Assembly: GCF_036322705.1 (NCBI RefSeq)
Contig: NZ_AP027270.1
Location: forward strand, 1,613,501-1,677,500
Direction: 5' to 3'
DNA from: Maricaulis maris
GTDB taxonomy: Bacteria; Pseudomonadota; Alphaproteobacteria; Caulobacterales; Maricaulaceae
Length of the DNA stretch: 64,000 nucleotides
Made by a program: the position numbers and the translations under genes. This document shows, piece by piece, positions 56,545 through 64,000 of this stretch. Within the stretch, counting starts at the first letter, position 1; each line of letters starts with the position of its first letter. The notes beneath the pieces are model-generated. The model saw only the letters and a program-made list of their open reading frames with translations, ran no database searches and had not been told where the DNA came from.

Positions 56545-57021
56545 ATGAGTTCTGATTCCCGATCCAGCTCCCCGATCAGCGCCGATCTCGTTCGCGAGCT
56601 CGCCGACATCCTTCGTGACACCGACCTGTCGGAAATCGAAGTCGAACGCGGTGACTTGCGTCTGAAGATTGCGCGTCAGGTCACGGCAGCGCCGGTCGTG
56701 CATGCGGTCGCCGCTCCGGCCCCGGCTGCAGCCCCGGCCGCTGCGCCGGCTGTGACGGCTGCGGCGCCGGCCGCGCCGGCCGACAATCCGGACGCCGTCA
56801 AATCGCCGATGGTGGGCACGGCCTACCTGAAGCCGAACCCGGATGCGTCTGACTTCGTGAAGGTCGGCGATCAGGTGAAGAAGGGCGATACCATCCTGCT
56901 GATCGAAGCGATGAAAACCTTCAACCCGATTACCGCGGAGAAATCCGGGACGGTGACGGAAGTCCTCGTCGCGGATGGCCAGCCGGTGGAATACGGCGAA
57001 CCCCTCTTCGTCCTGTCCTGA
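56545..57021 (+). CDS. accB: Biotin carboxyl carrier protein of acetyl-CoA carboxylase
   Basis: A 158-residue protein. An N-terminal region, an Ala/Pro linker (about 53-85), and a C-terminal biotinyl domain with K124 in [11 protein letters not shown]. The biotinylated lysine carries CO2 between AccC and the carboxyltransferase in the first step of fatty-acid synthesis. 21 nt after aroQ and 25 nt before accC. Confidence 0.96.
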
Positions 57022-57046
57022 CGCGACCAGCAAGGCGAGCGACGAC

Positions 57047-58393
57047 ATGTTCGACAAGATCCTGATCGCCAATCGCGGCGAAATTGCCCTTCGCGTTCAC
57101 CGCGCCTGCCGGGAGATGGGCATCCGCACGGTTGCGGTGCATTCCGAGGCCGACGCCAACGCCATGCATGTGCGCCTGGCCGATGAGAGCGTCTGTATCG
57201 GACCACCGCCGGCCAACAAGTCCTACCTCAACATCCCGGCCATCATCACGGCTGCCGAAGTGACCGGCGCCCAGGCGATCCACCCAGGTTATGGCTTCCT
57301 GTCGGAAAATGCCCGTTTCGCCGAGATCGTCGAAGCGCACGGCCTCGCCTTCATTGGCCCGACGCCGGCGCACATCCGCATGATGGGCGACAAGATCACC
57401 GCCAAACAGGCGGTCATGGATGCCGGCATTCCGGTCGTTCCGGGCTCCGAGGGCGGCGTCGAGACCTACGAGGACGCGGTCCCGATTGCCGAGTCCATTG
57501 GCTACCCGGTTCTGATCAAGGCGGCCTCGGGCGGCGGTGGTCGCGGCATGAAGGTTGCCGAGACAGCCGAAAAGCTCAAGGAAGCCATGGAAACGGCCTC
57601 GGCCGAAGCATTGGCGGCCTTCGGTGACGGCACCGTCTATATCGAGAAATATCTCGGTCGGCCGCGCCATATCGAGATCCAGATACTCGCCGACACGCAT
57701 GGCAATGTGGTGCATCTGGGTGAGCGCGATTGCTCCCTGCAACGGCGCCACCAGAAGATCCTCGAGGAAGCCCCTTCACCGGCCCTCAATGACGAAGACC
57801 GCAAGAAGATCGGTGAGGTTGTCCGCAAGGCGATCGAGGCGATCGGCTATCGCGGCGTCGGGACCATCGAATTCCTGTGGGAGAACGGGGAATTCTATTT
57901 CATCGAGATGAATACCCGCCTGCAGGTCGAACACCCGGTCACCGAAATGATCACCGGCATCGACCTGGTGCGCGAGCAGATCCGCGTCGCCGACGGTCAG
58001 CCGCTCGATATCAAGCAGAGCGACGTCAAGTTTGACGGCTGGGCGATCGAGTGCCGGATCAATGCCGAGAACGCCCGGACATTTGCGCCGTCACCCGGCC
58101 TGGTCACGGACTTTCACGCGCCCGGCGGCCTTGGTGTCCGCCTCGATTCCGCCCTTTATGCCGGCTATGCCATCCCGCCTTACTATGACAGCTTGATCGG
58201 CAAGCTGATCGTCCACGGTCGGACCCGTCACGAGGCGCTTCTGCGCCTGCGCCGGGCCCTGGAGGAAATGGTGGTTGGCGGTGTGCAGACCACGATCCCG
58301 ATCTTCCTCGAATTGCTTGAGGAACCGGATTTCGTGAGCGGCAATTATCACATCCGCTGGCTGGAAGACTGGTTGGCAAGCCGCGAGGACTGA
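57047..58393 (+). CDS. accC: Biotin carboxylase subunit of acetyl-CoA carboxylase
   Basis: A 448-residue ATP-grasp enzyme. [24 protein letters not shown]-binding glycine loop [32 protein letters not shown], and [24 protein letters not shown] are all present. It carboxylates biotin on AccB with ATP and bicarbonate. The start at 57047 gives the exact family N-terminus; there is an open frame from 56975 that overlaps accB and is not coding. Operon with aroQ and accB, followed by aat at 35 nt. Confidence 0.97.
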
Positions 58394-58428
58394 TCCCGCC
58401 CGCCAGCCAGCCGGAAGCAGGAGTTGGC

Positions 58429-59079
58429 ATGCGCGGCTTCGGCCCACAGGAATTGCTCAACTGCTATGCGCGCGGTGTCTTCCCGATGGCGGAAGGCCGT
58501 GACGATCCGCGCATATACCTGCTCGATCCGGACGAGCGCGGCATCATCCCGCTCGATGATTTCCATGCCTCACGCAGTCTGCGCAAAGCCGTGCGTCAGG
58601 ACCTGTACCGGGTCACCGTGAACCAGGCGTTTGAGGCCGTGGTCGAGGGCTGCGCAAAGCCCGCTCCGGGCCGCGAGGAGACCTGGATCAATGAGGCGAT
58701 CATCCGCCTTTATTCAAGCCTGCACGAGGCTGGCTACGCCCATTCGGTGGAGTGCTGGTCCGGCGCCGATCTCGTCGGCGGCCTGTATGGGGTATCACTC
58801 GGGGCGGCGTTCTTCGGCGAGAGCATGTTTTCGCGTCGCCGCGATGCCTCCAAGATCGCGCTGGTCCATTTGATCGCGCGGCTGCGGGCCGGCGGCTACA
58901 GTCTGCTGGATACGCAATTCACCACCGAACACTTGGAAAGCCTCGGGGCCATCACGATCCCGCGCAGCGCCTATCGCGAGCGCCTCGCCGATGCCCTGAT
59001 TTTCGAGGCCGACTTCGATGCCCTGCCGGAAAACGTCTCCGGCCGTCAGGCCCTGCAGTCGATCACCCAGACATCATAG
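58429..59079 (+). CDS. aat: Leucyl/phenylalanyl-tRNA--protein transferase
   Basis: A 216-residue transferase. Family motifs: [95 protein letters not shown] and [16 protein letters not shown]. It adds Leu or Phe to proteins with N-terminal Lys or Arg, making them ClpS-ClpAP substrates; clpS and clpA lie elsewhere in this window. Its last 34 nt overlap the convergent DUF2155 gene. Confidence 0.95.
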
Positions 59080-59525
59080 ACCGCATGTTCGAGCGGGTTC
59101 TGGGCCGGGCGCGATGCGAACATCCAGCCTGAAAAGATCTGCTCACCCTCGACATCGACACCAAAGCCGTCGGTCCGGCGATCATTGATCTGCAGGAAAG
59201 CATAGGTTTCCGGCGTCTCTTCCGGCGGGCGCTTGCGGCAGTATTGCGCGGTGATCGACAGCGCGCCGAACTGCACCGTGTCGCCGATGGCGACCTCGAA
59301 GTCGCGCGTGCGGGCGGTCACCTTGTCGAGCCCGCGCAGCACGACGATGCTGCCCGGCTGCGAGGACAGCGGACCGCGCTCTGCCGTGTTGTCGGGATCA
59401 TCCCGGCGCAGGAGATCAGAAGTCTCGTCCGCAGACACAGACGAGCCGGAACCCGTGCTGTCCTGCGCCCAAACGGGGGCAGCCAGACCGAGCGCAACAA
59501 TCAAGGCAAGTATGGAAGTTTTCAT
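59046..59525 (-). CDS. DUF2155 exported protein
   Basis: A 159-residue protein with a Sec signal peptide ([21 protein letters not shown]) and a C-terminal domain of the DUF2155 family: [53 protein letters not shown] and [31 protein letters not shown]. These proteins lie next to aat and NDUFA12 across alphaproteobacteria. Function unknown; the position beside a complex I subunit is conserved context only. Start 59525 is the ATG giving the signal peptide; a GTG 9 nt upstream is in frame. Confidence 0.92.
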
Positions 59526-59567
59526 GGCAGCCACCCTGTCGCGGGATTGTGACGCGGTAAAGGCGAA

Positions 59568-59984
59568 TTATGCCTCGTCCGGAGACCAGGCCTCGTAATC
59601 GCCCGTTGTCGACTGGCGACGGTCGCTGACGGCAAGCGAGCCGGTCGGGCGATAGGCGTGGACGGTGCCGGTGAGATTGGGATGGTGATCCTTCTCCCAG
59701 GACTGGCGGAAGAGCGGCGCGTCTGTGGGCACCTCGTCAAAGGTGTGGTGCAGCCAGCCATGCCAGTCGGACGGGACCCGCGAGGCGTCGGCATAGCCCT
59801 TGTAGATAACCCAACGGCGCTTCTGGCCCTGGCCATCCGGTCCGGTCTCGCCGGCTTCCTCGAAATAGCGATTGCCATATTCGTCCGAGCCAACCTGCTT
59901 GGCGCCGCGCATGCGCAGCGTCAGGAAGGTTCCCGGCGTGGCGTCTTTCCACCACACAAACAGCTTTGAGATCAGTCCGAACAT
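59568..59984 (-). CDS. NADH:ubiquinone oxidoreductase subunit NDUFA12 family protein
   Basis: A 138-residue homologue of mitochondrial complex I subunit NDUFA12/B17.2: FVWWKDATPGTFLTLRMRGAK, VGSDEYGNRYFEE, RRWVIYKGYADASRVPSDWHGWLHHTFDEVP and WEKDHHPNLTGTVHAYRP. Such supernumerary subunits are found in alphaproteobacteria. It packs on the matrix/cytoplasmic arm of complex I. Upstream of DUF2155 on the same strand with 42 nt between, probably one transcript. The nuo operon is not in the window. Confidence 0.95.
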   Translation of the reverse strand: MFGLISKLFVWWKDATPGTFLTLRMRGAKQVGSDEYGNRYFEEAGETGPDGQGQKRRWVIYKGYADASRVPSDWHGWLHHTFDEVPTDAPLFRQSWEKDHHPNLTGTVHAYRPTGSLAVSDRRQSTTGDYEAWSPDEA

Positions 59985-60139: not shown

Positions 60140-63085
60140 ATGCAGGTCTTCGGTCGCATTGCTGATTTCATCGCCGAGACAGCGTCCGCGGGCGCGACGG
60201 ATACCCACGAGCTTGCCGAGTTTGACGGCGATCGCGATGCGGCGATGCCCGGGGAGCGCGACGTTACGACGCCGGCCGGGTGGAGCCTGACCGCCGCCCA
60301 GGGCCTTGCTGACCTGCTCACCACACCGCGGCCGCTGGCCACCAGCCCGCGCAAGGGCGCCAAGAGCTTCAGCAAGCTGACCCCGTCATGCGCCGACGGC
60401 GAGGAACGGGTATGCGAATCCGATTTCGCGACGGTTGTGCAGCGCCTGTCGGGTTCGCTGGCCTGGTCGGCGGCACGACAAGGGGCCTTCGCGAGCGATG
60501 CAGACGCCGATCTGTTTGCGGGTGAGCTCGCGGCCAGCCTCACCGGGCGTCTCGTCATGCCCGACGCCAATCTCATTCGCGAAGGCGGTGTCGATTGGGC
60601 CTATGGCGACCCGGTTGCCGACACGCCGGCGACGCCTTCACCGCTGACAATTCGCATCAACTCGCGCCAGGCGCCTGGCCAGTTGCGCCGGGTTGCTGAA
60701 ACAGCCCTGCGCGCCTCGGTGCTGGACGTCGGTGCGCGGGTGACCCGCGACCGCCTCGAGGCCATTGGTGAGGCCGTGCGGCGCTGCTCCGGCGATATCG
60801 ACGACTGTTTCGATCCGCGCCGCAACGCGGCCCTCGCCCGCGCCATGCGCCGGGCCCTCAAGGACGGGGTTCCCGAGGAAGCCGTGGAGCGTGCCCTCGC
60901 CCTCGCTCGCCAGGGTACCGATGATGACGCCCTGGCCGCGTTGATACCCGACGCCTTGGAAACACGCCCCGCCGTGCTGCACGTGCCCCGGGCCTTCAGC
61001 CAGGCCGTCGCCATGGGTGAGGACTGGACGTTCGAGCAGGACGGCGGGGCTGTTCCGGCCCGCGACCTCCGGACCGGGATTGCCCGCACCGTGTGGAGCT
61101 TCGGCACGCCATCGCTCGCCTTTCACGCCAGCCCTGACGAAACCGGCCCGACGATCCACATCAATCTGCCGGCCTTTCTCGATCGCCGGGACGGCTTCCA
61201 GGCCGAACTGCTGACCGACACGATCCGCTACTGGGCGATTGCGCTCACCCTGAGTGCGCCCAAGGGCGCCAGCTCGGCCGGGTCGATCGCGCTGAGCGGT
61301 GTCGGCGCGCTGCTGATGGCGGCGGGTCTGGCCTATGGCAGTGAGGGCGCGCGCGACACCATGGCCGCGATCACCCATCTGGCGACGCGCACCCTGCGTG
61401 AGGTGGCGATGGAGACGGGGGCCGCAGCGCCCGGGCTCGGTCCCGCCGTGCCGCTGGATGGGCTTCCCGGTCCCTTCAGGCTCGTCGGCGCCGCCCTGCG
61501 CACCGACGCGTCCCCCTTCCTGCCGAAGGCCGCCCTCGCCCGGCCTGGCCCGACCCTGACCTGCCGCGAGCCCGACGGCGATATCGCCAACCTGCTGGAT
61601 GCGGACAGTTTTGGCGCAAGGCCGGTCAACGGTGTCATCACGGCCGATGCCGAGATGACCGGTGGCCAGCGGCTTCGGGACTGCGCTCGCGCCGGCCTGC
61701 TCGCACGGGGCCGCAGCGTCACCGAAGTCGAACGCGCCGAGGACCATGCGGCTGGCCATGGCAGCCTCCGAGGCGCCCCAGGTATCTCACTGGAAAACCT
61801 CATGGAACGCGGTGTCCCGGCGGACGCGCTCGAGCGCCTGGAAGACTCCATTGCCGAAGGCGCCTCGGTCCGCCACGCCCTCAATCGCTGGACGCTGGGC
61901 GACCGGACCTGCCGCGATGCCCTCGGCCTCACGGCTGACCAGATCGAGCGCGAAGGAAACGCCCTGTGCCATGCCATCGGCTACGACGAAGCCGCCATCC
62001 GCGCCGCCGATGCCCATGCGCATGGCACCGGCGACCTGGCCAATGCGCCAGACCTGTCGGCCGCCATCCGCGCCGTCTTCGATACACCGTCCGTACAGGA
62101 CCAGATGTTGATGGCCGCCGCCATCGAAGCCCAGATCGGCGGAAGCTGTCAGACCAGCTTGGCCCTCGAGGGCGAGGCCACAATCGATGATGTGGCCGCC
62201 CTGATTGACCTCGGCGGAGAGCTCGGCCTTCGCGCGCTCAGCATTCGGCGCACGGCATCGGGTCTGTTCGATCTCCTGCCGGCGATTGACTTCGACAAGG
62301 GCGATTATGCCGCCGAAGCCCCGCCGACCGAACGCATTGTGGAGCGGACGGTCGAACGGATCGTCGAAAAGCCGGCCGCCCGACGCAAACTGCCTGATCG
62401 GCGAAAGGGCTATATCCAGAAAGCCAAGGTGGGAGGCCACAAGGTCTACCTCCACACTGGTGAGTTCGACGACGGGGAGCTCGGCGAGATTTTCATCGAC
62501 ATGCACAAGGAGGGGGCCGCCTTCCGCTCGCTGATGAACAATTTTGCCATCGCGATCTCCATCGGCCTGCAATACGGCGTGCCCCTTGAGGAGTTCGTCG
62601 ACGCCTTCGTATACACACGGTTTGAGCCGGCCGGCGCCGTCGAGGGCAATGACTCGATCCAGCATGCGACCTCGATCCTGGACTATCTCTTCCGCGAGCT
62701 TGGCGTGTCCTATCTCGGCCGCGACGACCTCGCCGAACTGTCCCCCGATCGCGCCGACCCGGGCGGGCTGGGACGCGGTGTCGAGGAGGAGAAGCTTGCA
62801 CAGGAAGATGCCGCAAAATTCATCTCTCGCGGCTTCTCACGCGGTCAGGTGCCGGACAATATCCTGATGTTCGCCAACGCGCCCAAACGGGCAGCCAGCG
62901 GTGGCGATGGCCAGGACAGCCAGGCCGGTCACTACGAGATCGAGGACCGGACCGTGAGCCGGCCGGTCTCCCGCGATATCTCGGTCTATAGCGGTGACCC
63001 ATGCGCGGAATGCGGGCATTTTACTGTCGTCACAGACGATGTCGCCGGGCAGAAATGCGATGCCTGCGGCTGGACCGGAAGCTGA
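60140..63085 (+). CDS. Degenerate class II (B12-dependent) ribonucleotide reductase-like protein, TSCPD domain
   Basis: A 981-residue protein. Its C-terminal part is plainly NrdJ-like: [62 protein letters not shown] and [18 protein letters not shown], then a terminal zinc ribbon ([10 protein letters not shown] ... KCDACGW). Upstream blocks align with NrdJ too: the N-terminal [11 protein letters not shown] / [19 protein letters not shown] region, [18 protein letters not shown] in the place of the CNLASLNLxKFL segment, [33 protein letters not shown] and FALNxW-like ALNRWTLGD. About 200 residues shorter than NrdJ, with the catalytic-core cysteines not found. Probably not an active reductase; role unknown. 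Confidence 0.8.
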
Positions 63086-63137: not shown

Positions 63138-63626
63138 ATGGTACGGATTCTTCTCGCCCTGGCCGCCCTGCTCGCAACATCCGGCCTCGCACAGGCCCAG
63201 GATGCCGGACAGATCGCGCGGGTCCAGGCGGGTCAGTCCTGCCCCGGCTGCAACCTCTTCCAGGCTGAACTGGGTTATCTGGACCTGCCCGGCATCGATG
63301 TCTCCGGCGCCCGTCTGCGGCAAGCAAACCTGGCGCTTGTGACGATGAACCGCGCCCGGTTTGACGGTACCAACCTGTCGATCGCCAACCTGTTCGGCGG
63401 CCGCTTCACCGGAGCATCCTTCCGCAATGCGGATCTGACCCGCGCCAATCTGGTGGGAGCCTATTTCGGCGGTGCGGATTTCGGCGGTGCCAATCTCTCC
63501 GGCGCCACCCTCTCCGGAGCGGAAATGGCCAGCGCACGCGGCCTCACCCAGGCCCAGCTTTCCAGTGCCTGCGGCGATGCCTCGACCCAATTGCCGGCCG
63601 GGCTGACGATCCCCCCCTGCCAATAG
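63138..63626 (+). CDS. Secreted pentapeptide-repeat protein (first of two)
   Basis: A 162-residue exported protein. Signal peptide MVRILLALAALLATSGLAQA, then AGQSCPGCNLFQAELGYLDLPG with a CPGC motif, followed by about ten A(D/N)LxX pentapeptide repeats (ANLALVTMN, ADLTRANLVGAYFGGADF, ANLSGATLSGAEMASA) that should form a right-handed quadrilateral beta-helix. A second Cys pair is near the end (SACGDA ... PPCQ). The start follows GGAGTG. No function is known for this exported type. A second protein of the same design follows at 63747. Confidence 0.85.
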   Translation: MVRILLALAALLATSGLAQAQDAGQIARVQAGQSCPGCNLFQAELGYLDLPGIDVSGARLRQANLALVTMNRARFDGTNLSIANLFGGRFTGASFRNADLTRANLVGAYFGGADFGGANLSGATLSGAEMASARGLTQAQLSSACGDASTQLPAGLTIPPCQ

Positions 63627-63746: not shown

Positions 63747-64000
63747 ATGCGGACCAGTTTGAAGACATTGTCCTGTACGGTTGCGCTCCTCGCCTTGGCG
63801 GTCTCCCCCGCCCTTGCCGGGGGCGACGATCATCCGCGCCGCGGTCTGGCGATCGGTGGCGAGTGCGAGGCTTGCGACTTCTCCGACAAGAACATGGCCA
63901 ACGCCGTCTTCATCGGCGCCAATTTCGAAGGCACGACATTCGCAAATTCGGAACTGCCGTCGGTGACGATGATCGAGAGCCGGTTCAACGATGCCGACTT
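63747..64000 (+). CDS. Secreted pentapeptide-repeat protein (second of two, truncated by window end)
   Basis: Runs off the right edge. Signal peptide MRTSLKTLSCTVALLALAVSPALA, then GECEACDFSDKNMANAVFIGANFEG, i.e. a C-X-X-C just before the first repeats, as in the upstream gene. The visible part continues as repeats (ANFEGTTFANSELPSVTM). It lies 120 nt after the preceding gene on the same strand and looks like a tandem duplicate that has diverged. Confidence 0.8.
   Translation, partial: MRTSLKTLSCTVALLALAVSPALAGGDDHPRRGLAIGGECEACDFSDKNMANAVFIGANFEGTTFANSELPSVTMIESRFNDAD

Follow-up and report, generated by a model that had tools for sequence, protein, structure and literature searches.

A class II ribonucleotide reductase homologue of Maricaulis maris that appears to have lost its catalytic core and kept its C-terminal module

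The stretch of DNA analyzed here, referred to as the window, comprises 64,000 nucleotides of the genome of Maricaulis maris, and its subject is the gene at 60140..63085 on the forward strand, which encodes a degenerate homologue (a pseudo-NrdJ) of the class II ribonucleotide reductase (RNR) NrdJ. The open reading frame starts with ATG and specifies 981 amino acids (aa) with no internal stop, and the assignment is based on this frame together with profile and structure matches. Against PRK07562, the NCBIfam model of the vitamin B12-dependent RNR (1222 positions), the protein scored 453.7 bits (E = 1.2e-135), most strongly over its C-terminal half and far below the cut-off of 1737 bits. Of the Pfam domains, TSCPD (PF12637) scored 45.9 bits and cleared its cut-off of 22.8; Ribonuc_red_2_N (PF08471), the class II N-terminal domain, and the RNR barrel (PF02867) stayed below theirs, at 20.3 bits (cut-off 27) and 16.5 bits (cut-off 23.9). 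A sequence search against solved chains matched only the class II RNR of R. sphaeroides (7b9p and 7b9q). The original prediction, made from the letters of the window, had placed segments next to an ATP-cone at the N-terminus; Pfam finds no ATP-cone in the protein.

Along the chain, the remnant of Ribonuc_red_2_N occupies residues 40-134 (60257..60541, +) and is followed by a first deletion site at residues 157-168 (60608..60643, +), where about 80 residues of active NrdJ, including the cysteine of the PHACFI segment, are gone after residue 166. The second deletion site, at residues 331-346 (61130..61177, +), is where active NrdJ has its finger loop, from NPCSEY to the cysteine of CNLAS. The TSCPD module, which is of the IscU-like kind, covers residues 745-865 (62372..62734, +) and is supported by Pfam, the alignment and substitution rates. 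From the alignment, an SRGFSRG motif follows at residues 896-902 (62825..62845, +), with S896, G898 and R901 invariant, and a zinc ribbon closes the protein at residues 949-981 (62984..63082, +), with its cysteines at positions 955, 958, 973 and 976.

The predicted structure agrees with this descent. An AlphaFold2 model built from a 50-row alignment had a mean predicted local distance difference test (pLDDT) score of 80.2 and a predicted template-modelling (pTM) score of 0.72. Its best Foldseek match was 7b9p (E = 6e-34, TM scores of 0.52/0.56, 921 columns, root-mean-square deviation of 8.0, 21% identity), and the model of a degenerate copy from another family (L130; pLDDT 75.3) also matched 7b9p best (E = 4e-21, TM 0.47/0.45). 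The RNR alpha/beta barrel architecture is thus predicted for the window protein, which is an RNR in both ancestry and predicted fold. A segment of the barrel at residues 225-255 (60812..60904, +) resembles the N-terminal domain of YebC/TACO1 (PF20772), as do residues 296-367 of an active NrdJ (L036), both below the Pfam cut-off (E = 8e-4 and 1.4e-3).

What has been lost was examined by aligning 43 degenerate rows with 12 hand-picked active rows. The window protein itself (L001), L125 and the fragment L141 (from genome G008) were left out of this alignment, and two of the 43 rows, the named records L033 and L034, apparently repeat L002 and L012. The PHACFI cysteine falls in a gap of 82 columns behind window residue 166, and the NPCSEY finger loop in one of 25 columns behind residue 334; beyond the latter, the CNLASLNL-type position reads [15 protein letters not shown]. 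These gaps bear out the original prediction that this position was altered and that the NPCSEY- and CFI-type segments were absent. The cysteines of PHACFI, NPCSE and CNLAS are those that we take to be catalytic, with the NPCSE cysteine as the radical cysteine and the other two as the active-site redox pair. All three are kept in 12 of 12 active rows and none occurs in any of the 43 degenerate rows or in the window protein, so the suspected loss of the core is real. The tail of active NrdJ has six cysteines; for the S. nassauensis protein, the proposal in PMC5704485 is that four of them bind zinc and that C933 and C945 carry electrons to the active site. The redox pair is absent from all 43 degenerate rows and the window protein and present in all 12 active rows; the four zinc cysteines are present throughout. 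The C-terminus, which had been called nearly canonical, is therefore so in its zinc ligands and not in its redox cysteines. As far as the alignment goes, the loss is selective: residues serving reduction are gone, and residues serving the folding of the tail are kept. In the loci that were fetched, NPCxE and CNLAS occur together in all long frames of full length and are both missing from all short frames of the degenerate kind. Judged by sequence, the class II RNR gene of this genome is catalytically dead, everything known to be needed for reduction having been lost.

Conservation is concentrated in the part that remains. In an alignment of 50 rows (38 degenerate, including the window protein, and 12 active), 74 columns were invariant. 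The stretch 745-865 accounts for 65 of them, among these H789, K790, E791, Q811 and Y812, and the SxGFxRG motif for three; the zinc cysteines make up another four, and the last two are found elsewhere. The mean identity among 24 degenerate rows (the window protein and 23 from outside Maricaulis) was 21-30% in the N-terminal and barrel segments, 86% in residues 745-862 and 46% in the zinc ribbon; among the 12 active rows it was 83% in the module and 56-62% in the N-terminal and barrel segments. That the chemical core is gone but the tail nearly unchanged across distant bacteria suggests that the tail probably has a job of its own. Within Maricaulis, the module has a mean identity of 97% among 18 proteins. 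For nine Maricaulis pairs, the ratio of nonsynonymous to synonymous substitution rates (dN/dS; Nei-Gojobori) ranged from 0.07 to 0.15 for the complete protein and from 0 to 0.027 for the module, and no segment had a ratio above 1. Single ratios are rough, as many segments had a dS above 1 and saturation affected one value. This supports selection rather than decay, as had been proposed.

The gene is found throughout the genus. The window protein was matched in 59 of 61 genomes (its own and those of relatives), and all 19 Maricaulis genomes, its own included, have a match, which in 18 is full length without stops and in the remaining one (G008, 69% complete) runs off the end of a contig. A sequencing error as the cause of the missing core is excluded by this record.

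The setting of the gene is that of nrdJ. Upstream lies a divergent NDUFA12-like gene (59568..59984, -), the neighbour of nrdJ in the conserved order accC-aat-DUF2155-NDUFA12-nrdJ, which was tested by BLAST and whose remaining genes, accC (+), aat (+) and DUF2155 (-), occupy 56975..59534. Directly downstream is a pentapeptide-repeat-like gene (63138..63626, +), relatives of which stand downstream of both dead and active nrdJ and, when clustered by single linkage, reach 24 of 31 loci; a further gene of this kind lies at 63747..64000. The names given to all of these neighbours are what we take them to be. NDUFA12, aat and DUF2155 were found by BLAST beside the degenerate gene at all 16 non-Maricaulis loci with long flanks (L035, L115, L117, L118, L125, L127-L136 and L138), and at eight degenerate loci with short flanks (L019-L023, L025, L027 and L030) NDUFA12 was found in two and nothing in six. 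Among active nrdJ loci, 28 of 94 have an NDUFA12 match, for example in Robiginitomaculum, Kordiimonas, Iodidimonas and Devosia; those without one include Ruegeria and Bradyrhizobium. The shared ancestral neighbourhood makes the window gene the positional orthologue of nrdJ and not an extra copy. No further NrdJ turned up in the genome: apart from the window protein, the NrdA frame was the sole match. Of the original wording, 'inactive paralogue', the adjective stands and the noun does not. The window contains no B12 riboswitch or other Rfam element at the gathering score, and neither the window protein nor L144, a reduced form described below, has a defence-system match in PADLOC.

A scan of 150 genomes of the order with PRK07562 shows how common the degenerate form is. 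Matches to this model alone say nothing, because matches below its cut-off occur also in bacteria such as E. coli. Classes were assigned by score and coverage, with residues checked in the fetched loci. In total, 106 genomes are counted as having the degenerate form (a partial match scoring 406 bits or less), 35 have an intact gene and nine have neither; the 35 consist of 29 above the cut-off and six with near-full-model matches at 1623-1728 bits. In the nine, which belong to genus g9 (G026, G062, G063, G122, G131 and G140) and to g21 (G038, G065 and G081), the scan gave a weak match only (E = 1e-15 to 1e-32), with neither active nor dead NrdJ. By family, in the order genomes fetched or scanned, f2, f3 (probably Caulobacteraceae) and f4 have the degenerate form or none, f5 has intact genes only and f1, the family of the window genome, is mixed. 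In one genome (G028), the nrdJ gene (L137) is split into frames of 1117 and 194 aa, which reflects a recent break or an assembly error.

Caulobacter vibrioides was among 14 control genomes. The Caulobacter gene CCNA_01966 is listed as a vitamin B12-dependent ribonucleotide reductase in PMC5869019 and is drawn as NrdJ in a B12 pathway figure in PMC6538847. In our searches of the control, TSCPD was above its cut-off, as in six of the 14 controls, and the PRK07562 match did not reach its own, a threshold that six intact genes of the order narrowly miss as well. PF08471 matched none of the 14 controls, which thus offer no positive control for that domain and say little about Caulobacter. On its own scores, and with no intact copy in the sampled genomes of f2, f3 and f4, the Caulobacter gene is likely, though not proven, to be the dead form.

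These bacteria have another reductase. In the window genome, class I NrdA is present with NrdB about 1.5 kb downstream, which answers the question of a second RNR raised by the original prediction. All 61 relatives checked have an NrdB that exceeds its Pfam cut-off, and in 60 of them the match is at full strength; the exception, G044, has a weaker NrdB match and an intact NrdJ. As seen at the loci L031 (C1:465487-466908 of the window genome) and L143, a frame of 164 aa, the size of NrdR, holds the one ATP-cone detected in this genome, and the class I NrdA region has none. Outside the order, a barrel frame of class I size (624-652 aa) is present in each of six genomes that carry the module. G174, G196 and G236 each hold an additional RNR-barrel gene that matches strongly (445-543 bits); the first two also carry a reduced NrdJ.

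Reduced forms of NrdJ also occur elsewhere in the class, of which 143 genomes were scanned, and all of those fetched adjoin NDUFA12. L144 is an open frame of 301 aa with little beyond the module and a four-cysteine zinc ribbon; L145, from a 1.2 Mb genome, has 278 aa and consists of the module without the ribbon; L146, L147 and L148 (667, 565 and 530 aa) join a shortened N-terminal part to the module; and L151 (1229 aa) has by eye lost the finger loop, with a barrel still recognized by Pfam and an intact module. The number of losses was estimated on a tree of four neighbouring genes, which omits L144 and L145 owing to their very long branches in a first tree and in which L147, L148, L070, L080 and L119 fill less than half of the columns. 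It contains five changes of state between dead and active, four of them forced by well supported branches. On this tree, catalysis is lost with the module kept three or more times. It also places the active Robiginitomaculum and G023 beside Maricaulis (support 100/97) and rejects a single clade of degenerate bearers within the order (approximately unbiased test, p-AU = 0.013). Trees of the module itself read differently: a quick tree including the zinc-ribbon columns (37 degenerate and 87 intact rows) makes the dead form one clade (SH-aLRT, an approximate likelihood-ratio branch support, of 95), and a more careful tree that omits the ribbon columns (hand-picked rows, 31 degenerate and 40 intact) has two changes and is compatible with one clade (p-AU = 0.554). 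Since catalysis, once lost, could not plausibly return in place, the order has seen either two losses, or a single loss followed by reacquisition through transfer. In the quick module tree, a NrdJ titled Frankia sp. RB7 (L051) falls among Bradyrhizobium, probably through a wrong label or contamination.

Upstream sequences give a hint of function. At all six f3 loci, two 16 bp NrdR-like boxes stand 32 bp apart before the dead gene. With what we take to be the standard NrdR box consensus, used untuned, no locus had more than 2 of 200 shuffles that equalled its best pair; with a stricter string, L131 prefers a spacing of 30 and L129 was equalled in 6 of 200. These two untuned strings served to repeat the f3 test, as the consensus used for 25 degenerate loci outside f3 had been loosened after inspection of the sites; the shuffles preserve base counts and not dinucleotides. 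The 25 loci gave marginal pairs at L117 (p = 0.017) and L012 (p = 0.05). NrdR-like pairs also precede several active nrdJ genes, and one, judged by its low mismatch count, precedes the nrdA of the window genome. The boxes before the f3 dead genes hint at a link to the supply of deoxyribonucleoside triphosphates (dNTPs).

The interpretation that is favoured, with a little more than even confidence, is that nrdJ lost catalysis in place and that the protein was kept as a pseudoenzyme whose module binds a putative conserved partner tied to dNTP supply. The sequence-level basis for this is the combination of lost core and redox cysteines, kept module and zinc ligands, purifying selection, ancestral place and the presence of a class I RNR. 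In this proposal, a class II RNR gene would lose catalysis at its ancestral site and its product would be retained; the barrel remnant would act as a scaffold, and the module, the SxGFxRG motif and a now purely structural four-cysteine zinc ribbon, as the most strongly selected part, would most likely bind the partner. The function of the module may already have existed in active NrdJ, separable from catalysis and connected with dNTP supply, and may have outlived reduction after NrdAB took reduction over. One example would be a role as a non-catalytic partner or regulator of the class I RNR, whose NrdA here has no ATP-cone. There is precedent for the tail doing structural or regulatory work beyond the transfer of electrons: the C-terminal domain of S. 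nassauensis NrdJ drives dATP/dGTP-dependent oligomerization (PMC5704485), and the homologous NrdJb of P. aeruginosa binds the catalytic subunit in trans, more tightly with dATP (PMC4520616).

Several observations weigh against this proposal. The AlphaFold2 model is weak past residue 872, with pLDDT mostly below 60 in the zinc ribbon and its linker. In nine of the 150 genomes of the order no form of the gene was found, so that it is dispensable in places. Among the reduced forms, L145-L148 and L151 end without a zinc ribbon, and two others keep the barrel remnant while the module is missing (L149, 731 aa, no TSCPD match) or much eroded (L150, 967 aa), so that the module is not the selected part everywhere. 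Within Maricaulis, full-length homologues are 56-83% identical to the window protein over the whole length, which means that the barrel remnant is constrained too. Finally, the six f3 loci are related and are not six independent cases, and a clear box pair was found at none of the 25 non-f3 degenerate loci, that of the window included.

The absence of clear boxes from the window gene and the 24 other non-f3 genes is also what would be expected if the dead protein were kept for a job outside dNTP supply, with the module and a basic leader ([15 protein letters not shown]), in which many residues are invariant, binding nucleic acid or another cell component. This is possible, if rather doubtful, as the module derives from an RNR, paired boxes are kept at six of six f3 loci and class I NrdB is present in all 61 relatives checked. 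A narrower form of the favoured explanation, in which the pseudo-NrdJ regulates the overall activity of class I NrdAB in trans, senses dATP/dGTP and replaces the ATP-cone, gains from the missing cone of NrdA and from the oligomerization and trans binding cited above; it is unlikely in this specific shape, as PMC4520616 places effector binding in the catalytic subunit. Ongoing decay, with a pseudogene still open by chance, draws on the very divergent barrel (22-30%), the nine genomes in which no form was found and the loss or erosion of the module in L149 and L150, yet is rejected as highly improbable, at least for Maricaulis, given the low dN/dS in nine pairs, an open frame that runs full length in 18 of the 19 Maricaulis genomes and the degenerate form, by score, in 106 of 150 genomes of the order. 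A reductase still active through other residues would fit the predicted structure, whose best match is 7b9p, and is scarcely credible with the finger loop deleted, no catalytic or redox cysteine in 43 of 43 rows and a barrel under the Pfam cut-off. An iron-sulphur scaffold, suggested by the likening of the class II RNR C-terminal domain to IscU (PMC9669993), is rejected just as firmly, as residues 745-865 of the window protein contain no cysteine.

A pseudoenzyme with a partner-binding module would be one instance of a broader proposal, on which our confidence is evenly divided: that the tail of alphaproteobacterial NrdJ has an ancient, reduction-independent function in dNTP control, that the core disappeared repeatedly (at least three times with retention of the tail, by the neighbour-gene tree), and that the 'B12-dependent RNR' gene of Caulobacterales, very likely including that of Caulobacter, is mostly no reductase. 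For the IscU-like domain of class II RNRs, a 2022 analysis states that no role has been reported (PMC9669993). Bacteria that keep this domain without catalysis separate the two and make its role directly testable by deletion. In addition, annotations of a 'vitamin B12-dependent ribonucleotide reductase' in the order need a check of the finger loop before they are counted as B12 use or as a second RNR. Among the literature matches listed, in which subscription papers are thinly covered, there was no report of a catalytically dead NrdJ in these bacteria.

Some herpesviruses keep catalytically dead homologues of the RNR large subunit for another job, although these are class I, viral and employed in an unrelated role. 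Compared with active alphaproteobacterial NrdJ (PRK07562; 7b9p), the window protein has the same locus, layout, predicted barrel fold and four zinc cysteines, with a module on average 81% identical to those of the 12 active forms; it differs in having neither the finger loop nor the catalytic and redox cysteines, and in its length and score (981 aa, where the model has 1222 positions; 454 bits, where the cut-off is 1737). A further parallel comes from P. aeruginosa and its split class II RNR, as the small subunit NrdJb is predicted to carry an IscU-like and zinc-finger module as a separate chain (PMC9669993), and L144 and L145 are of that kind. However, NrdJb performs dithiol exchange for NrdJa in the same cell, whereas the window protein has no redox cysteines and no other class II RNR was found in its genome. 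With stand-alone TSCPD-domain proteins (PF12637), the window protein shares a TSCPD domain that scores above the cut-off; it differs from them in that this domain is joined to the barrel of a dead RNR and to a zinc ribbon.

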